DNA from: Anabaena subtropica FACHB-260
GTDB lineage: Bacteria > Cyanobacteriota > Cyanobacteriia > Cyanobacteriales > Nostocaceae
DNA: 50,240 bases
Assembly: GCF_014697105.1 (NCBI RefSeq)
Contig: NZ_JACJRF010000040.1
Span: forward strand, 1-50,240
Reading direction: 5' to 3'
Position numbers and translations under genes: made by a program. Shown one piece after another: positions 38,112 to 46,567 of the stretch; within the stretch, counting starts at the first letter, position 1; each line of letters opens with the position of its first letter. The notes beneath the pieces are model-generated. The model ran no database searches, had not been told where the DNA came from, and saw only the letters and a list, made by a program, of their open reading frames with translations.

Positions 38112-38136
38112 AAAGAGGCAAATCATCATATCAAAA

Positions 38137-38176
38137 ATTGTGCGATTGGCTATTGTGAGGTAGGCGATCGCACAAT
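38137..38176. terminator. Inverted repeat between convergent genes, possible bidirectional terminator
   Basis: ATTGTGCGAT (38137-38146) and ATCGCACAAT (38167-38176) are perfect complements with a 20-nt loop. They lie between the 3' ends of the nitroreductase gene (38111) and the PIWI-like gene (38206). A short A-run precedes the repeat on the left and there is no good T-run on the right. The right arm contains a HIP1 site. Confidence 0.4.
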
Positions 38177-38205
38177 ATAATTCACCAGTATTCTAGATAT
38201 CCTGT

Positions 38206-41200
38206 CTATGAATTTGCGTCTTCATTCTCGGTTTCTTCATCATCAATAGTGAAATCACTGATATAGTCCCGCACAACACGCTCAAAAAATAGGGGAGCAG
38301 GCAAACCTGTCCAATCGCTGTAGTGACCAAAGCCATAGCGCAGTGACTCCACAAGGGCAGCTAGATCATCAGGATTATCTTCCGGTTGCCTCAAGGTAAC
38401 AACAATCTCAAGGGGGTTGGGAGTAGGCCAGCGACCCGCAAATGGAGGTTTTTTAGAGAGTTGACTTATCTTTAACCCAGTTTGTTTTACTAGAGTATCG
38501 GTTGAGCGATAGCAACTTTGCCCACGAGCTTTTCTTTGTGGTAATTCACGCGCCACAGATAGATAAGCTACGCATCCAGTTTGGTTAGTCGCGCTGAGTC
38601 GAAATAACCCAGTCGCACTTGACGCTGAAGGAATTTCTAGATTAGGCGGCAGTTTATTTAGTTCTTCTTTAGTTCTGGTATCTTCTACAGAAGTTTCTAT
38701 TAAATGTCTTGATTTTTTCTCAATAATGCCAGGGGCAAGTTCTTGGCGAATGCGAATTAAACGCGCGCCTTGCCATTCATCCTGCATATTCTCATACTGT
38801 TGACCAAGGTTAATTTGATTAGCATTAATTCTGATATCAGCTAACCAATTCCAAAGTTTAACGCAGTTGGAAGAATCAATCATAACTAAGGGTTGCATCC
38901 CTTCTTTCACAGAGTTAGTAATAATCTGTTTTACAAATTCCATGAATCGAGTTTTACGTACATCCTCTTTGTCAGCTAGTTTGATTGGAGTAAGTTGGGC
39001 AATAAAAGCTCGTGCATCAGTAAAGCTACTCCAAGGAGTTATTGCTAAATTTCCTTTATCATAAGCACAGCAAAACTCACATTTACCTGTATCTACATTC
39101 AGGCGTATTGCTATTGGTAAAAATGTATTTCCAATACTGCCACGAGCGCGACCCTTTTGTTTACGGACGATTGTAATTGCAATAATTTCTTTTGGTCTGG
39201 CTTCTAGCGGGATACTTTGCAGATACTTATCAACTTTTTCTCTCAGATCATTAATGTAACCAGAATGAGCAAAGAGCAAATCTTTTAATGCTGACTGCAT
39301 CCGATGGAAAAAGTCTGTGAGTTTAAGACAGTTTGTTTTTCGTATCTTTGCGATGGGTAGTAGAAACTGGACACCAGCACCAACCTTTGCTAATACTTGG
39401 CGGGTTGAAGGTTTATTAACTTTATCATCAGGTTTCACAGTGTTTTGACCAGTAGGATCTGGGTAAAAGTTCCGCGCCATGATTAAGCAGAAAGTTGGCT
39501 GATTTAGCTTTTCAATCTGTTTTGCAGTGGATTCCCATGCTTTAATTCGCTCACGCGATCGCTCTTTAGCTTTGAATTTTTTTCCAGGTAAACCTTCTCG
39601 TGGCCCGTGGGTCTTTTTTGGTAAGAGATTAATCTCTACTTTGAGTGTGTCTCCCCACAAGATTTGAGTAATTTTCTGCAATAGTTTCGCTTCTGTTTGC
39701 AACTCAGATTCATAAAAGATAAATAATAAGGGTCGCTCATTAGGATACAATTGCTGAATAGCTGCTTGGTTTGCTTGAATGATTTTTTGAAGTTCATCTG
39801 TCTGATTCAGCGTGCGTCCCTTAAATTGAAAGGCTTTTCTTCCCCAATGAATCCCTTCTAAACGAAGGTCAAAGTATTTACATAGCAAGTCATCAATTTG
39901 TTTCTCGTTGAGTTGATCTAAATATTTTGGAGTAAACTCCAATTTGGTATTTGTTTCAAGAGCTTCCAAAACACCACCAAGCAGTGTCGGAAGATTAATC
40001 ATACGCGATGCTGTATCATCTAGTTTATGCTTAGATGGTACTTCTGTGTAACCATCGAATATTTTGATTCCTAATGGTTGAAGAATTTTAGCGATCGCCT
40101 CAAACGCATCTAATTTATCAATTTCTGGTACACCTGTTTCAATACCATATTTTTCTGAAGTTTCTTCTTCGTCTTCTGAATTATCTTGAAGTCCATTACG
40201 GTAAGTTAGAACTACTTCACAGCTATCAGTAGAGGCTAAACCAGAAGCTATTTCTTGACCATCACAAGATTGTTTTAGTTTTAATTCTCTTTGCAGAATG
40301 TTAAAATCTGTATCTGCCACCCAACGAAAACTTTTATTTTCTTGTTTGTTATTTTTACCCTTTTTGTTATTTTTATCTTGTTGGCATTTTACTTGATAGC
40401 TAAAGGAGCGATTGCAATGGTCTTGGGAAAATATGAAACCGCTAATATTCCTACGGTCATACTTAGGAGCTTTTAATTGAGTAAACCAGCGACGTTTGGA
40501 AACCTCAACTTTCAGCAAAGGTTGATGCAAAGATGGATAAGTAACGACTTCCAGACGCACTACAAAACTGAATTTTCCTTTTGTGTTAGGTAGGGTAATC
40601 GGATCAATAATCAGTTCTGCCATGCCAGAGGTAAATGTTCCGTTGCTGGAAATAATGCGTTTAATCGGCCCTAACTCTGGGAAAATTACCTGTCCAGCAA
40701 TTTGGCGAGCCGCGTAATCTGCCAGCATCCGATAGGCATACTTGTCTTTTGGTTGAGTTGTACCTGTCTTTTCATCTGAACCCCAAGGTAATACTTGAGA
40801 TTTAAATGGAGAAATTTTTATTAACTCTCCTATTTCTCGCAAATCTTCTAATCGCTCAATAATCCCTATGGATATATCCTCTTTTTCAACAAACGGTTTG
40901 AGATAATTTATGAACCAATCATTAATAATTGGGCGAAGCACTTTATTTATTTCTTCTTCATCGCCATCAGTCAGGTAAACAAAAGGTTCTGGCTCATCCC
41001 CTCTGTTAGCATGATAAAATGCACCCTTGCTCAGACCTACTTCTGGTTCAATTCGCGCCGCATCTTTTAGTACTACTTGTAGAAAACCTCGCAATGAGGC
41101 ATAGGGGAGATTTTTGAGATTAGCTCCTTTTTGAATCTCGGCAAAACTTAGCATAGATGCTTTTGTCCAGCTAAGTGTTAAACCCTCTACTATGATTGGA

Positions 41201-41370
41201 GGTAGTTTATCTGGTACAGTGAAGGCTAAAGGAAATTGTTTGATTGGTTTGATTTGACCTTGCTGAATATAAAAGGTATCTGAAACTAAACTACCATCAG
41301 TTTCTTGTTCTTCCTCTTCTTCAAAAAAGTCTTCTTCCAATTCCATTTCATTATCAAAATTGTCGGTCAT
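38206..41370 (-). CDS. PIWI-like protein of the pPIWI-RE type (Argonaute-related)
   Basis: 1054 residues. The N- and C-terminal ends are acidic. The body matches what I know of pPIWI-RE proteins: a long N-terminal region, a MID-like part, and an RNase H-fold/PIWI-like C-terminal domain. Visible marks are the strand IIAITIVRKQKGRARGSIG (near 725-742), a second strand PLVMIDSSN (near 825) with its Asp, and a C-terminal GFGHYSDWTGLPAPLFFERVV (near 1012-1032). The family was named for conserved Arg and Glu residues, and Arg/Glu-rich segments are present, but I cannot assign the exact catalytic set by eye. A Lys/Asn-rich low-complexity stretch lies near 335. It follows the helicase gene with a 2-nt gap, so translation is coupled. 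Predicted role: guide-dependent recognition or cleavage of invading nucleic acid. Function is inferred, not shown. Confidence 0.8.
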   Translation of the reverse strand: MTDNFDNEMELEEDFFEEEEEQETDGSLVSDTFYIQQGQIKPIKQFPLAFTVPDKLPPIIVEGLTLSWTKASMLSFAEIQKGANLKNLPYASLRGFLQVVLKDAARIEPEVGLSKGAFYHANRGDEPEPFVYLTDGDEEEINKVLRPIINDWFINYLKPFVEKEDISIGIIERLEDLREIGELIKISPFKSQVLPWGSDEKTGTTQPKDKYAYRMLADYAARQIAGQVIFPELGPIKRIISSNGTFTSGMAELIIDPITLPNTKGKFSFVVRLEVVTYPSLHQPLLKVEVSKRRWFTQLKAPKYDRRNISGFIFSQDHCNRSFSYQVKCQQDKNNKKGKNNKQENKSFRWVADTDFNILQRELKLKQSCDGQEIASGLASTDSCEVVLTYRNGLQDNSEDEEETSEKYGIETGVPEIDKLDAFEAIAKILQPLGIKIFDGYTEVPSKHKLDDTASRMINLPTLLGGVLEALETNTKLEFTPKYLDQLNEKQIDDLLCKYFDLRLEGIHWGRKAFQFKGRTLNQTDELQKIIQANQAAIQQLYPNERPLLFIFYESELQTEAKLLQKITQILWGDTLKVEINLLPKKTHGPREGLPGKKFKAKERSRERIKAWESTAKQIEKLNQPTFCLIMARNFYPDPTGQNTVKPDDKVNKPSTRQVLAKVGAGVQFLLPIAKIRKTNCLKLTDFFHRMQSALKDLLFAHSGYINDLREKVDKYLQSIPLEARPKEIIAITIVRKQKGRARGSIGNTFLPIAIRLNVDTGKCEFCCAYDKGNLAITPWSSFTDARAFIAQLTPIKLADKEDVRKTRFMEFVKQIITNSVKEGMQPLVMIDSSNCVKLWNWLADIRINANQINLGQQYENMQDEWQGARLIRIRQELAPGIIEKKSRHLIETSVEDTRTKEELNKLPPNLEIPSASSATGLFRLSATNQTGCVAYLSVARELPQRKARGQSCYRSTDTLVKQTGLKISQLSKKPPFAGRWPTPNPLEIVVTLRQPEDNPDDLAALVESLRYGFGHYSDWTGLPAPLFFERVVRDYISDFTIDDEETENEDANS

Positions 41371-41372
41371 TT

Positions 41373-44300
41373 TTACATCTCCAATAGTGGTGAAAAATCA
41401 TTAAAACCGTCTTCTTCATCCGTCAAATCTTGTGAATTAGCTAGCTCATCAGGGTAAATGAGTCCTTCAATACGTTTTAAGGGTGCTAAAAATGCGCCAT
41501 AAAGTTCTTGATAAATTTCCCGAATTACGGGGTCTTTATGGTTGACACATTCTTCTAAAATGATTCGCATCTGAACCAGCATACTGTCTCGCCCAGAGTC
41601 GGGTTTACCTTCTGCTGATTTTTTAGCCCAAGCTGCATCCACAAAGTAAACTGATACCGGGCATCCATTCCGCATTCCTCGCCCAATTGTTTGCAAAATC
41701 GCAACCATTTGATTAGCTGTAAACGATTTGAATAGTTCAGGGCCTAAACGGCTAGCCATTAAGGGTTCACGTAACAATCTATTGGCAGTTTTCCAAAGGT
41801 CTTTTCTCGATTGCTGCCAAGAAGTTGCGATCGCATTTAAATCTTCTGTTTCACCAAAAACTCGACTATCAAATTCTTGTGTTGCGCGTCCTGCCAAGCT
41901 ATACAAAAGCTGCATATCATCCTTGGTAGGATGAGGACGAGTCAGGAAGTAAATCGAGCCAATTGCCGCATCTAGTTTTCTATCTCCTTTGGTGAAAACG
42001 ATGTTCACACCTCTACCAATTGCCAACATGGGAAAAATTAAAATATCACAGTTTTCATCGTCTCCTAACGCTTCACATTGAGCAGAGGTAACAAAATCTG
42101 CCGGTTGTTCTCCATCTCTGAGGGACTGAACAATTGCCTTTGTATATCTACCAACTTCAGGATGATAGTCATTGATATATTTCTTGATAGAACGAGCCTG
42201 TTCATAACTATTGACAACTAAAGCGGCTTTGCGACGAATACCAGACTTTACATCAAATCTATTCATAGACTTGTAAATTTCAGGTTTACTTCCTCCTACA
42301 AGAGCATTTACCATTCGCAGAAGATTACGCTTTTGAAGGTCGCCAGCACCGCTATATTTGAGGGGTTCATCACCACGTTCACTATCTGGGAACCATTTGA
42401 AACGATAAACGCTCTGCTCTGCTTTATTTTCTGACTGACGCGGTTTTAGTAAATAATGTGGGCCAGCGTTAATGTGGTAGGCAGGACTAGCTTCTAAAAA
42501 TGAAGTTGCCGAGGTAATTAAAACGGCTGGGCTTGGATGTCCATCATCTGCCTCTAACAACCGATGAAAGCGATGCATTAACATTCGAGGCGCACCAACA
42601 AATGTAATGTAGGACAATTGCACATTTTTGGCGGCGGTACGTGTTGTTTGTGCTTTGGAAAAACTGTATCGCACTCCAGAAAATGAACCTAAAATACTTT
42701 CTGGAATAAATTTTCGGAGTTCTGGTGATGCAGTTGATTCCACAATTGGTTCACGAATGAAACCATCTGCAACCATCGTTCTAGTTCCTGGTACAATTCG
42801 CTGGTAGCCCACAATTACGAAAGTAACAGTTATAAGTAATTTAGCTAAATCTTCTGCTTCTATTGTTGATAAATGATCTGGAAAACAGAGCTTGAGAAAT
42901 AATTCGGCAATTTCTTCAACGATCGCATCACGTCGCTTAATCAGATTTTCAGCCAGGTAACGGCGGAAATGACTAATGAGAGTTTCCCATTGCTTTTCAA
43001 GGATTTCACGGTTATAGCCTAAAATCCGAGGCCACAAATCTGCTTTAAAGTTTTGAGGGTTCTCAACACCTGTGCGATCATAGAAGGCGTTATATGCTGC
43101 CGCTTCCCAAAATTCAGTTAGCGCCCGACTTTTACTAAAGCCTAGTTTGGCTTCTTGTTCATCAAGGTCATCCTGCTGAGAGGATTTCTTTAAAGTATTC
43201 AATAGTTCGCTAACAATCCGTAATACAGTCAATAATTGATTTTCGTAGCGTTCTCCCACCCGCGACTTAGACATATTCTGAAGGGTGGTAATTAAGGAAG
43301 TATTATAGCTACCAAATTCTGCCGAGTCACGGCTGTAGAGTTCTACATCTCGATCGAATAATCGATGGCTCTCGCTGCCAGCAAAGCGGTTATGGATTTG
43401 TTCTAAAATTACCCGATGAATGGATCGCTCTGAGCCTGAAATACTTAAAGTTGCTGCCCCATAGCCATCTAACACTGTCTGCACCATATCACCTTCGTCG
43501 CAAACAACTACATCGAAGGTACGAGCAATTAATTCAAAATATCGTACTTGTTCCTGAATCGCGTGAGGTGATATTTGAGTATCGAGCGATCGCACATGAC
43601 CAACCCAAATATTAGCATCCAACAAATCTCGCGGTGCTTTGTTTCGACCGCACATTGTCCATAAGGGACACAGGCATTTCTTCATCTTTCCCTGTTTCCC
43701 TCCGCCTTGCAATATCTCGTTGCAAGGTGCGTAACCAAAGCCCCACAGAGACATATCGGCAGTTGAAAAGGCTGGTAGGACGCAGTTCATCCCAAAAACT
43801 TCTGCCTGTTCTAAGGTGTGAGCAAAACCACCATTACCTTGTGTTGCTATAGCTTCAGCAATATTATCTGCATGACGACGACGAGTTTCATCACTTTGTC
43901 CGACAAGCATTCCCACTTTTACCTGATGAAATGCCAGTTCAGCCATGTACTGTCTAGCAACTTCAATAGAGGGAAACACAAACATTGCTTTATAGTCATG
44001 TAATCCTAGCCAGATAGCTATCAACACGAGAATGGTTGTTTTACCTGACCCTGGCAAACCAATTAAGTGCTTGATGTCTTCTAATTCCAGAACATCATTT
44101 TCTTTCCGCAGACCTTTTCCGTCCTCCGATACCATGAGGTCAAAGCGTTCAAAACGATCTGCCCAGTTACCACGTCGTCGCTCAGTATCTTGCTTTTCAC
44201 GCTCGTCCATCTCAATAGCCAGATCGCGCAGTTCACTTAGGGGAATGCGAATTTTTCCTCTTGGTTGGCGGTTGAGAGAATGTGTACGACGTGCAATAAT

Positions 44301-44780
44301 CGGGGCATTTATACGAGGGATGTCTAACTTCACGGCGGTTGACTCTTCACCTAATGCAACCGCCATCGCCTGACGAGGATCGGCAAATGTAAAACCATAC
44401 GAATCGTATGACAAAGGGGCACTTAAAATTTGACGCGCTTGTGTAATTTGAGAATCTTCTAAAGGATCTGTTCTTTTGAAGTGCAGTGTTTCGGTATCAA
44501 TCTCATACGCTCCTTTAGTATGGTTGCAGTAATGATGATTGTTATAGAGAGCAATTGCGTGTTGAACTGACTGCCGTGTAACAAAAGTCAAGGACATCTG
44601 CCGCATATTGAAAATAGCTTGACGGGCTTGCTCTAATACAGCTGCATTTAAAATGCTGGCCATACCTGACATAATTACTGGCGCGTACTCCAGTGAATTA
44701 GTATCAATAAATTCCTCCATTAAGACGCAAAGCCAGCAAATTCGGTCTACACCTTTCCAAAAATCAGGTTTGGTTCGCAT
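41373..44780 (-). CDS. DinG-like superfamily 2 helicase of the pPIWI-RE operon
   Basis: 1135 residues. Walker A is GLPGSGKTT (near 243), preceded by an N-terminal domain of about 230 residues. Walker B reads VVVCDEGDMVQ (near 428), DEGD instead of the usual DEAH/DEAD. Between them CNEI...CLCPLWTMC (near 350-378) gives four cysteines in C-x15-C-x-C-x5-C spacing, which fits a 4Fe-4S cluster as in DinG/XPD helicases. The C-terminal motor has a GRATQEF segment and motif VI QTIGRGMRNG (near 1030). It probably unwinds DNA or R-loops for the PIWI-like partner. Its start overlaps the end of the REase-like gene by 17 nt, and its stop lies 2 nt before the PIWI-like gene. The DNA between the two motor halves is long, which may indicate an accessory domain. 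Confidence 0.85.
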   Translation of the reverse strand: MRTKPDFWKGVDRICWLCVLMEEFIDTNSLEYAPVIMSGMASILNAAVLEQARQAIFNMRQMSLTFVTRQSVQHAIALYNNHHYCNHTKGAYEIDTETLHFKRTDPLEDSQITQARQILSAPLSYDSYGFTFADPRQAMAVALGEESTAVKLDIPRINAPIIARRTHSLNRQPRGKIRIPLSELRDLAIEMDEREKQDTERRRGNWADRFERFDLMVSEDGKGLRKENDVLELEDIKHLIGLPGSGKTTILVLIAIWLGLHDYKAMFVFPSIEVARQYMAELAFHQVKVGMLVGQSDETRRRHADNIAEAIATQGNGGFAHTLEQAEVFGMNCVLPAFSTADMSLWGFGYAPCNEILQGGGKQGKMKKCLCPLWTMCGRNKAPRDLLDANIWVGHVRSLDTQISPHAIQEQVRYFELIARTFDVVVCDEGDMVQTVLDGYGAATLSISGSERSIHRVILEQIHNRFAGSESHRLFDRDVELYSRDSAEFGSYNTSLITTLQNMSKSRVGERYENQLLTVLRIVSELLNTLKKSSQQDDLDEQEAKLGFSKSRALTEFWEAAAYNAFYDRTGVENPQNFKADLWPRILGYNREILEKQWETLISHFRRYLAENLIKRRDAIVEEIAELFLKLCFPDHLSTIEAEDLAKLLITVTFVIVGYQRIVPGTRTMVADGFIREPIVESTASPELRKFIPESILGSFSGVRYSFSKAQTTRTAAKNVQLSYITFVGAPRMLMHRFHRLLEADDGHPSPAVLITSATSFLEASPAYHINAGPHYLLKPRQSENKAEQSVYRFKWFPDSERGDEPLKYSGAGDLQKRNLLRMVNALVGGSKPEIYKSMNRFDVKSGIRRKAALVVNSYEQARSIKKYINDYHPEVGRYTKAIVQSLRDGEQPADFVTSAQCEALGDDENCDILIFPMLAIGRGVNIVFTKGDRKLDAAIGSIYFLTRPHPTKDDMQLLYSLAGRATQEFDSRVFGETEDLNAIATSWQQSRKDLWKTANRLLREPLMASRLGPELFKSFTANQMVAILQTIGRGMRNGCPVSVYFVDAAWAKKSAEGKPDSGRDSMLVQMRIILEECVNHKDPVIREIYQELYGAFLAPLKRIEGLIYPDELANSQDLTDEEDGFNDFSPLLEM

Positions 44781-46281
44781 AAGGCATCTTCTTTAAAAAA
44801 TCAATTACAGACGAAACCGACATAATTTCTAAACTGGCGGGATCGCCCTTCTTATCTAGTGTTGAGATGAGGGTAGAAATGTAGCTTGGGTTGTCTTCTA
44901 TTAAGCGATCGCTCACAGCAAGAATCCGGCGGCGATAGTGAATCAGCCCGCCAATACTACGATTGAGACGCAAAGCCAGAGTCACCGGACTTGTGTAAGA
45001 CTTAGCATCAATTCCAATTGCCCGTTCGTTAATTGCCACATCGCATAAATCCGACTCCGGGTAAAGTTCAGCATTGAGTTTATTTTGTCGGGCTGTATCA
45101 AAAATGGCTAATTCGTCAATTGCTGGGCCTGTCCAGTAGGTAAGAATTCGTGGCTCGGCAATTCGTAAAATGTCTTTGGGATCTAGTTTTTCAGATACTT
45201 TTGGCGAGTTGTGGCCAATGCACTGGCGAATTGGACAACGCCCTTGTGAAAAAAGTTTTTTGTTGGGATGCGATCGCATCAATGTTCCACAGTGGGCACA
45301 ACGATGTGCTAGTCCATCAACTAGCCAGATATCTGGCACTAAGTGGAAGAAATTTTCAACGATCATTCGCTGTAAAGGGGTCAAGTCATTTTCAACCAAG
45401 TAGTCTAATAGTTGCCGTTCTCCTATCAGAGAGTACCTGCCAAATAACTCTCGTAGCGCGGTGTAAGCTTTGTGTTGGCGACGACCGCCCAATCGTTCAG
45501 TTGCTTCGCATAACTGAGTATATAAGCGATGCTCAATCACATTATCTTCACCAAAAGCCCCGCTCAGGTTGGCAATCTCTGCACAGTCTGAAGTAGGTAC
45601 TCGTAAATCTGGATCGATTAAGGTAACGCTAGAAAAGCGAAAGTCTAATTGGCTAAAAACCCCTAACTGCCAGCGATCGCCACCAAGAGAGTATCGAGCG
45701 TTATCTAAAACAGTATGCACACAGGCAGCGCGATCGCTTAATCCTTCTTCAATATATAGACGGCCCAATTTGCACAGTGCTTGATAGAGTTCTGGTGGCA
45801 GTGTACTATCCTCTTGGCGCACAATTTCTCGACCTGGGAGAACCCGTTCATATTGGCGAAGAATTCCCTGAGCAAGTAACACCACAGCATCTTCAGCCAG
45901 ATCCATCGCTGGGCGGTGTCCAGTAGGTAACGGTAAAGAGGTTGCTGAAATTGCAGGTAACCATGTGGGGTCTTGACCTTGAGCCTCTGCCAGAATTTGC
46001 ATCTCTAAAGTATCTTCACCAAAGGAAGGTAAAACTTGAGCGATCGCTGCAAGTGTCCAACCTTTCTTTAATAGTAAAATTATTACCAATCCCTCCAAAA
46101 TTTGACGGAATCCAAATTCCTGCCCTTTGGGTTGTGATAAAAGTTGCTTTGCTCTCCACGAGCGCACAGTTCGCAAAGCTGGTGGCTCTACTGATAGTTT
46201 AAGTTGTTCAATCTGGCGTTTAAGTTCTTTTGTAAGTGCATCCGCAGTTCCCTGCCACTGACGCACACTTTCAAATTCCAT
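44764..46281 (-). CDS. REase-like protein of the pPIWI-RE operon (HTH, zinc ribbon, PD-(D/E)xK nuclease)
   Basis: 505 residues, first gene of the operon. The N-terminus has a helix-turn-helix-like stretch (LVIILLLKKGWTLAAIAQVL, near 70-90) resembling MerR-type HTH. A zinc-ribbon-like motif CAHC...CPIRQC lies near 327-354. The C-terminal part carries ESDLCDVAINERAIGIDAKSY (near 409-430), an Asp followed by D-A-K in the pattern of PD-(D/E)xK restriction nucleases. This fits the third component described for pPIWI-RE three-gene islands. The HTH suggests it may also bind its own promoter. The start ATG 46281 has no Shine-Dalgarno sequence, and the leader is very short if the promoter proposed here is right. 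It overlaps the helicase gene by 17 nt. Confidence 0.8.
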   Translation of the reverse strand: MEFESVRQWQGTADALTKELKRQIEQLKLSVEPPALRTVRSWRAKQLLSQPKGQEFGFRQILEGLVIILLLKKGWTLAAIAQVLPSFGEDTLEMQILAEAQGQDPTWLPAISATSLPLPTGHRPAMDLAEDAVVLLAQGILRQYERVLPGREIVRQEDSTLPPELYQALCKLGRLYIEEGLSDRAACVHTVLDNARYSLGGDRWQLGVFSQLDFRFSSVTLIDPDLRVPTSDCAEIANLSGAFGEDNVIEHRLYTQLCEATERLGGRRQHKAYTALRELFGRYSLIGERQLLDYLVENDLTPLQRMIVENFFHLVPDIWLVDGLAHRCAHCGTLMRSHPNKKLFSQGRCPIRQCIGHNSPKVSEKLDPKDILRIAEPRILTYWTGPAIDELAIFDTARQNKLNAELYPESDLCDVAINERAIGIDAKSYTSPVTLALRLNRSIGGLIHYRRRILAVSDRLIEDNPSYISTLISTLDKKGDPASLEIMSVSSVIDFLKKMPYANQT

Positions 46282-46288
46282 ATATTTT

Positions 46289-46324
46289 TTTACATTAATA
46301 TATGTTTACATTAAATGATGTAAA
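46289..46324. promoter_or_regulatory. Operator-like TTTACAT repeats over the operon promoter
   Basis: TTTACATTAA occurs at 46289-46298 and again at 46305-46314, exactly 16 bp apart. ATGTAAA at 46318-46324 makes an inverted repeat with the second copy (7 bp arms, 6 bp spacer). All three lie on the predicted -35/-10 region, so a bound protein should block transcription. The HTH-bearing first gene product is a candidate autorepressor (inference). Confidence 0.5.
46297..46324 (-). promoter_or_regulatory. Sigma-70-type promoter of the pPIWI-RE operon
   Basis: On the minus strand TTTACA (46324-46319) and TATATT (46302-46297) are separated by 16 nt. The expected start of transcription is about 10 nt before the ATG at 46281, giving a nearly leaderless message, in line with the missing Shine-Dalgarno sequence. 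Confidence 0.55.
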
Positions 46325-46567
46325 ACAAAATGTCAATAGGTCATGCTGAATAAAACAAAGGGTAAAGTCTAAATTGAAACAATATTTTTGAAAAAGCCAC
46401 CCCCGAAAGTTAAATTAAATAAACTGGCATAAGTCTTGACATAAAATGGTTTTCAGTCATAAGCGATCGTGCAGAAGAACAAAAATAAGTTATGGCTCAA
46501 GTCACATCAACGACCATCCTCTTAACACCAATCAGACTCTTGACTTTTAAATAAAATGTGCGAAGCT
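46325..46567. other. Divergent intergenic region between the defence operon and the exporter operon
   Basis: Non-coding, AT-rich. A TTGACA lies at about 46436-46441 and a TTGACT at 46540-46545, but neither has a well-spaced -10 (TAATAT at 46567-46572 is 21 bp from the latter). One partial HIP1 site. No gene seen. Confidence 0.45.

Follow-up and report, generated by a model that had tools for sequence, protein, structure and literature searches.

Results and Discussion

The DNA analysed here (the window, 50,240 nucleotides of Anabaena subtropica FACHB-260, contig NZ_JACJRF010000040.1, positions 1 to 50,240) carries a locus that, by every profile test and by its gene order, is an intact pPIWI-RE three-gene island. 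The cassette is an additional member of a family already described, a neglected branch of the Argonautes for which literature searches turned up a single computational and a single biochemical paper devoted to it. With modest confidence we lean towards a mechanism in which a guide-loaded, non-slicing PIWI sensor would recruit the helicase and the restriction endonuclease (REase)-type nuclease of the island against invading DNA, with autoregulation of the operon by a helix-turn-helix (HTH). The Argonaute-related immunity role that a preliminary description of this DNA gave to the triad is still a prediction.

44764-46281, minus strand: gene 1, pPIWI-RE nuclease (PprRE), 505 amino acids (aa); Pfam pPIWI_RE_REase 4.1e-13, PADLOC PprRE 6.2e-118
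41373-44780, minus strand: gene 2, DinG-like helicase (PprDinG), 1135 aa; PADLOC PprDinG E=0
38206-41370, minus strand: gene 3, pPIWI-RE protein (PprPIWI), 1054 aa; Pfam and PADLOC

The three open reading frames (ORFs) have the strand, the lengths, the 17-nt overlap (nuclease and helicase, 44764-44780) and the 2-nt gap (helicase and PIWI, 41371-41372) that the preliminary description gave them, and the coordinates were checked. Pfam, PADLOC and gene order also bear out the family identity it proposed. In the profile search it had called for, the 1054-aa protein matched the pPIWI_RE profiles significantly (RNaseH_pPIWI_RE 2.8e-51, pPIWI_RE_X 5.2e-35 and MID_pPIWI_RE 4.2e-19, all three above the family cut-offs), and the 1135-aa helicase matched pPIWI_RE_Z (5.7e-35). 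PADLOC gave 3.6e-88 for PprPIWI, E=0 for PprDinG and 6.2e-118 for PprRE; NCBIfam returned zero matches for any of the three proteins at E up to 0.1. Chance or mis-assembled ORFs are ruled out by the ORF coordinates together with the Pfam and PADLOC scores.

According to the accessible text of their description (Burroughs, Iyer, Aravind 2013, PMC3702460; the papers cited here by PMC number are all cited from the accessible parts of their text), pPIWI-RE islands resemble the window without any categorical difference. They share the three families, their order and their close or overlapping ends, a zinc ribbon plus REase protein with an optional N-terminal HTH (MerR among those named), a Cys-rich DinG-type helicase and an X-MID-PIWI protein. 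To that description we add that every alignment row sampled lacks the first catalytic Asp (its position being placed by motif), as well as an empty insertion site and clade-specific promoter motifs. The copy in the window is intact, its insertion is defined and it has a putative operator; the prediction it yields is clear, namely that the sensor does not cut and the nuclease does, which makes the 2013 hypothesis directly testable in cyanobacteria that are experimentally tractable.

Conserved residues and proposed mechanism

The domains of the PIWI protein lie as follows.

40033-41226, minus strand: pPIWI_RE_X domain, residues 49-446 (Pfam 5.2e-35)
39244-39705, minus strand: MID domain, residues 556-709, with K653-x3-R657-x10-Q668 (Pfam 4.2e-19 and alignment columns)
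38257-39186, minus strand: RNase H-like PIWI domain, residues 729-1038, with T733, D832, R873/R875 and E988 (Pfam 2.8e-51)

Conservation was read from two partly overlapping PIWI alignments, one of 87 cyanobacterial rows and one of 47 rows (A4). The MID residues K653, R657 and Q668 are kept in 73, 75 and 79 rows of the former and in 44, 46 and 44 of the latter, and their spacing fits the 5'-end pocket of Argonautes. The catalytic Asp pair of slicing Argonautes is incomplete in the window, with T733 at the first position and D832 at the second, as placed by motif: 733 is taken as the first RNase H Asp site from the first-strand pattern IIAITIV, and 832 as the second. Position 733 is never D or E in the 87 cyanobacterial rows, where T, Y, C, W, R, H, A, Q, S and F occur, and the 47 rows hold T, W, S, Y, H and F but no Asp. 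Position 832 is Asp in 34/87 and 30/47 rows, the window among them. In addition, the Arg and Glu of the family are present as R873/R875, either of which may be the published Arg, and E988 (R in 80 and 80, and E in 75, of the 87 rows).

The helicase and nuclease show a different picture of conservation, their key residues being invariant or nearly so.

44274-44771, minus strand: pPIWI_RE_Z domain of the helicase, residues 4-169 (Pfam 5.7e-35)
43650-43784, minus strand: putative iron-sulphur Cys 333, 353, 371 and 377 of the helicase, between motifs I and II (conservation)
46027-46173, minus strand: MerR-like HTH of the nuclease, N-terminal, residues 37-85 (MerR_1 E=0.041)
45220-45300, minus strand: zinc ribbon Cys 328, 331, 349 and 354 of the nuclease (invariant in 41 rows, A6)
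44794-45117, minus strand: REase domain of the nuclease, residues 389-496, E390...D411..D414...D425-A-K427 (Pfam 4.1e-13 and conservation)

Four cysteines had been described between the Walker motifs of the helicase; the count is five (333, 353, 369, 371, 377), and four of them (333, 353, 371, 377) are invariant, being found in 75/75 cyanobacterial rows and also in 42 helicases reaching other phyla. Walker A G246-K247 and D428-E429 are likewise kept in 75/75 cyanobacterial rows. The label 'DinG-like' rests on the PADLOC triad model, on PMC3702460 and on the position of these Cys, which suits DinG/XPD. Against solved structures the helicase profile gave short P-loop matches only (the best, to reverse gyrase, at 5e-5 across 53 positions). 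Furthermore, the tree splits the helicases of cyanobacteria into two or more deep groups, and in a smaller set 24 share 53-100% identity with that of the window and the others <=20%; the closest among the matches listed is from Nostoc sp. 'Peltigera membranacea cyanobiont' 210A (96% identity).

In the nuclease, the D...DAK motif and zinc ribbon seen earlier are confirmed as D425-A-K427 and four conserved zinc Cys. E390, D411, D414, D425 and K427 each occur in 84/84 cyanobacterial rows and are nearly invariant in the 41-row alignment, in which R277 is invariant. The Y domain scored 0.064 in the window protein (below the cut-off), while 33/41 aligned members match it, and MerR_1 was found in 4/41 (best 2.9e-6).

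The first Asp position is never Asp, whereas the key residues of helicase and nuclease vary little or not at all. The PIWI protein of the window therefore seems to be non-slicing: it apparently retains the guide pocket and has lost the slicer, and the helicase and nuclease seem to be retained as enzymes. We infer that it would bind a short guide through the MID pocket and pair the guide with invading DNA or an R-loop, with no cutting of its own. The iron-sulphur-type helicase would then be recruited and would unwind or translocate, the zinc-ribbon REase subunit would cut the exposed DNA, and the N-terminal HTH of the same protein would probably bind a promoter palindrome and set the dose. Short prokaryotic Argonaute systems such as SPARDA likewise pair a non-slicing guide sensor with an effector nuclease, although they differ in architecture, have an abortive collateral nuclease and lack a helicase. 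A further parallel to this mechanism may be DdmDE, in which the catalytically inactive, DNA-guided DdmE recruits the helicase-nuclease DdmD (PMC12409362). Like the island of the window, whose sensor seems to be non-slicing, DdmDE combines an inactive Argonaute-like sensor, a superfamily 2 helicase and a PD-(D/E)XK-type nuclease. Next to ddmDE lies a WYL regulator, as is also the case at three plasmid-borne proteobacterial pPIWI-RE loci. DdmD fuses helicase and nuclease, whereas the window has them as separate proteins with iron-sulphur-type Cys and a zinc ribbon. The island may work like the anti-plasmid system DdmDE, with three proteins in place of two, but is not filed as DdmDE.

An alternative, which we consider unlikely, is R-loop-directed restriction (Burroughs 2013; Huang 2022), where the PIWI protein would recognise the DNA-RNA hybrids that transcribed invaders form and would cleave a strand itself, with helicase and REase assisting. 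In its favour, PsPIWI-RE of Pseudomonas stutzeri, a protein of the same family whose gene also neighbours dinG and a nuclease gene, can use RNA guides to cut DNA and DNA guides to cut RNA (PMC10991935), and D832 is kept in the window. This is countered by T733 at a first Asp position that is never Asp in the 87 and 47 rows, and by an Asp at 832 in only 34/87. PsPIWI-RE, moreover, is on the 783-aa scale and cuts with two catalytic Asp, whereas the window protein has 1054 aa and seemingly lacks the first.

Several observations speak against the non-slicing, DdmDE-like defence mechanism that we prefer. The Asp column was assigned by motif, without an active PIWI-RE sequence to anchor it. PsPIWI-RE, although it too has dinG and a nuclease gene as neighbours, does cut and needs D525/D610 (PMC10991935), so non-slicing is not true of every triad. 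With hhalign, the helicase profile was insignificant against E. coli DinG (2.2%, E 0.022) and the control RhlE scored no worse (5.4%, E 0.0072); C371 and C377 fall on two Cys of E. coli DinG within this otherwise insignificant alignment. The MerR_1 match of the window nuclease (E=0.041) is below the family cut-off. PADLOC (E up to 0.1) gave no DdmD or DdmE match for any of the three proteins, the models being presumed to be in the library. Lastly, the literature searched held no phage or plasmid challenge of any pPIWI-RE triad and no known defence phenotype, and the sole experimental paper found on the family reports, in its accessible text, nuclease activity and ciprofloxacin sensitivity, not defence (PMC10991935).

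In other searches, solved structures gave no match to the PIWI profile (best E 0.44) or the nuclease profile (best 0.59). A Pseudomonadota match (G687) lacks both Asp by alignment, and as a query on plasmid records it gave zero matches.

Distribution and co-inheritance

The triad is accessory, being patchy within the order of the window and plasmid-borne. There is one PF13032 match in the genome of the window (5.81 Mb, 104 contigs). PF13032 was found in 100/388 genomes of the order (97 above cut-off; the genome of the window counted), so that islands reach about a quarter of those sampled, and in 3/398 Pseudomonadota genomes (2 above cut-off; one is the survey centre, picked for having it). 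Two sets of loci were analysed, namely 109 (L031-L139) of the 124 places with matches in the order, the remaining 15 being the window itself and mostly fragments, and 79 named loci (L140-L218) from the best 80 of 102 confirmed matches; they share assemblies, so their counts are not independent events. By our own length limits, intact triads make up 68/109 and 62/79 loci, all with the order nuclease-helicase-PIWI on one strand. All three genes are present with at least one broken in 17/109 and 7/79, while 15/109 and 10/79 run off the available sequence. The nuclease or helicase was not found in 9/109 despite at least 5.5 kb 5' of the PIWI gene.

The three genes are co-inherited, as seen from the splits shared by their trees (112 loci). 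PIWI and helicase trees share 59 of 82 well-supported splits, PIWI and nuclease 50, and helicase and nuclease 52, with few strong conflicts (5/71, 7/71 and 3/73, respectively). At any support, PIWI and helicase share 69 splits, against a mean of 0.2 in a relabelled control.

Among 72,556 plasmid records, 16 match by PIWI and 26 by helicase, and triad carriers include plasmids of Calothrix, Tolypothrix/Microchaete and Azospirillum and conjugative plasmids of Bradyrhizobium elkanii. A phage-borne origin was rejected: 50,697 phage records held no PIWI or helicase match, and of 28 viral-contig candidates none was confirmed.

This distribution bears on whether the three proteins could instead form a replication or repair module that resolves R-loops or stalled replication on the host chromosome. 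Deletion of piwi-re in P. stutzeri causes ciprofloxacin sensitivity and filamentation (PMC10991935), and DinG-type helicases work on R-loops (PMC3702460), as such a role would have it. The patchy spread (100/388 in the order, 3/398 in Pseudomonadota), the 17/109 broken loci plus the 9 more in which nuclease or helicase was not found, and the occurrence of triads on plasmids and at different insertion sites all argue against it, and we hold it to be quite unlikely.

Some relatives are of unusual size or setting. Plasmids carry giant pPIWI-RE proteins of 3256 aa (Azospirillum oryzae, L225:7947-17717), 3394 aa (Microvirga, L228:7899-18083) and 3100 aa (Bradyrhizobium elkanii, L229:10609-19911), and open giant frames of at least 3000 aa run to the end of the sequence in L180-L183. 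In these proteins a PIWI module is followed by some 1400-1700 aa that match nothing in Pfam, and after that by an ATPase domain of the AAA_22 type (4.1e-6 to 3.2e-9). At each of the three plasmid loci a gene for a WYL regulator lies upstream, and downstream there is a gene annotated as an AAA ATPase (AAA_33 3.2e-11 in L229). The accessible text of PMC3702460 does not mention such giants. Additionally, two more short helicase-like matches lie 5' of the triad in Spirosoma fluviale (L196:2030-4925), and one member of the clade of the window (L169, 59% identity) sits on a contig binned as Myxococcales, by transfer or binning error.

Insertion and mobility

38115-46535: segment absent at this place in the same-genus genome G792 (= L257), by flank comparison
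38137-38176: hairpin on the 3' side of the operon with arms of 16 nt (88% complementary), resembling a terminator by eye and common to L259 and L260
34951-36032: two overlapping ORFs, transposase fragments, probably a broken insertion sequence element; DDE_Tnp_1 5.9e-8, DDE_5 8.7e-4 (below cut-off)

The cassette is an insertion at the window site. In G792, 117 bp lie between the window flanks (one up to 38114, the other from 46536), compared to 8,421 bp in the window, and in G796 the same flanks are 1,049 bp apart with different sequence between; these are the 2/12 other genomes of the genus with both flanks matching side by side. The closest homologue, L140, has 94.1% DNA identity over 38234-46337, where the match ends. 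Its site, beside a coaBC-like gene (named by eye), is common to eight other Nostoc loci (L141-L146, L149, L155). The cassette of the window is not at that site (30 loci compared), and the genes flanking the L140-type site sit on different contigs in the genome of the window. Furthermore, L179 (= L259) matches over 38117-46404 and L260 over 38124-46404, both at about 84%, with flanks that differ from those of the window. Since these shared segments have differing flanks, the promoter region and the 3' hairpin move together with the unit. The terminator scan did not call the hairpin.

Plasmid occurrence and relocation as a transcription unit would also be expected of a mobile module that is retained because it serves its own transfer or maintenance (plasmid competition, addiction) and that defends the host only incidentally. 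The unit contains no toxin-antitoxin-like small gene and no transposase, and no terminal inverted repeats or target duplication were noticed at the cassette, which makes this explanation improbable to us. The 'mobile-element-rich area' of the preliminary description proved thin: a scan of 17 window proteins gave no transposase match beyond the two overlapping fragments.

Promoter region and putative operator

46304-46324, minus strand: palindromic putative operator TTTACATCATTTAATGTAAAC (conservation), overlapping the putative promoter upstream of the nuclease gene
46290-46295: further half-site ATGTAA, upstream of the nuclease gene
46331-46336: TTGACA, putative promoter region
46297-46302: TATATT, putative promoter region

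The palindrome is conserved in the clade of the window. Among the window and 31 named clade loci, 31/32 have it at <=5 mismatches and 28/32 at <=4, a level reached by 0/960 shuffles and 0/2,758 other 220-bp stretches of these loci (2 and 4 at 5 mismatches). The 31 were taken from 40 named clade loci (L140-L179), seven being left out without a usable gene 5' end, plus L156 and L166 without good reason. In a fuller run on all nuclease ORFs of at least 340 aa, the palindrome (<=5 mismatches) was found in 52/58 loci of the clade and 0/96 outside; the six misses in the clade had 8-12 mismatches and the best outside had 7. The genome of the window holds one perfect copy, plus G000:C26:60550-60570 (2 mismatches) and G000:C12:51752-51772 (3 mismatches). 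The sigma-70 scan found 19 sites against 18.9 expected, and therefore the promoter call rests on conservation. Rfam gave no match in the window at the gathering score, and a known RNA beside the operon was rejected on that basis.

Other clades have other motifs. Three GAAAC(A/T)T repeats occur in 19/23 loci of a second clade, with not even two in any of 131 other loci; three occurred in 8/1,674 control windows of the same loci, some of them probably the site itself given a loose exclusion. In a third clade, TTGCATAGG-like repeats were seen by eye. As far as our searches go, clade-matched promoter motifs of this kind are not in print.

The conserved palindrome suggests that the operon is autoregulated by the N-terminal HTH of the nuclease protein, one of the options offered in PMC3702460. 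It is also conceivable, if quite doubtful, that the nuclease acts as a switch as well: the HTH would repress at the palindrome until the guide-loaded, non-slicing PIWI protein and the helicase draw the nuclease to invader DNA, which would vacate the operator and induce the system. Clades would then pair different HTHs with different operators (the palindrome, GAAAC(A/T)T repeats or TTGCATAGG-like repeats), with a separate WYL regulator in proteobacteria.

Other genes of the window

Positions 3920-31579 of the window hold three giant polyketide synthase/nonribosomal peptide synthetase genes (2520, 4552 and 2160 aa) with methyltransferase domains and one class III aminotransferase domain, and acyl-CoA dehydrogenase, decarboxylase, KAS III-like and Rieske genes lie near them.

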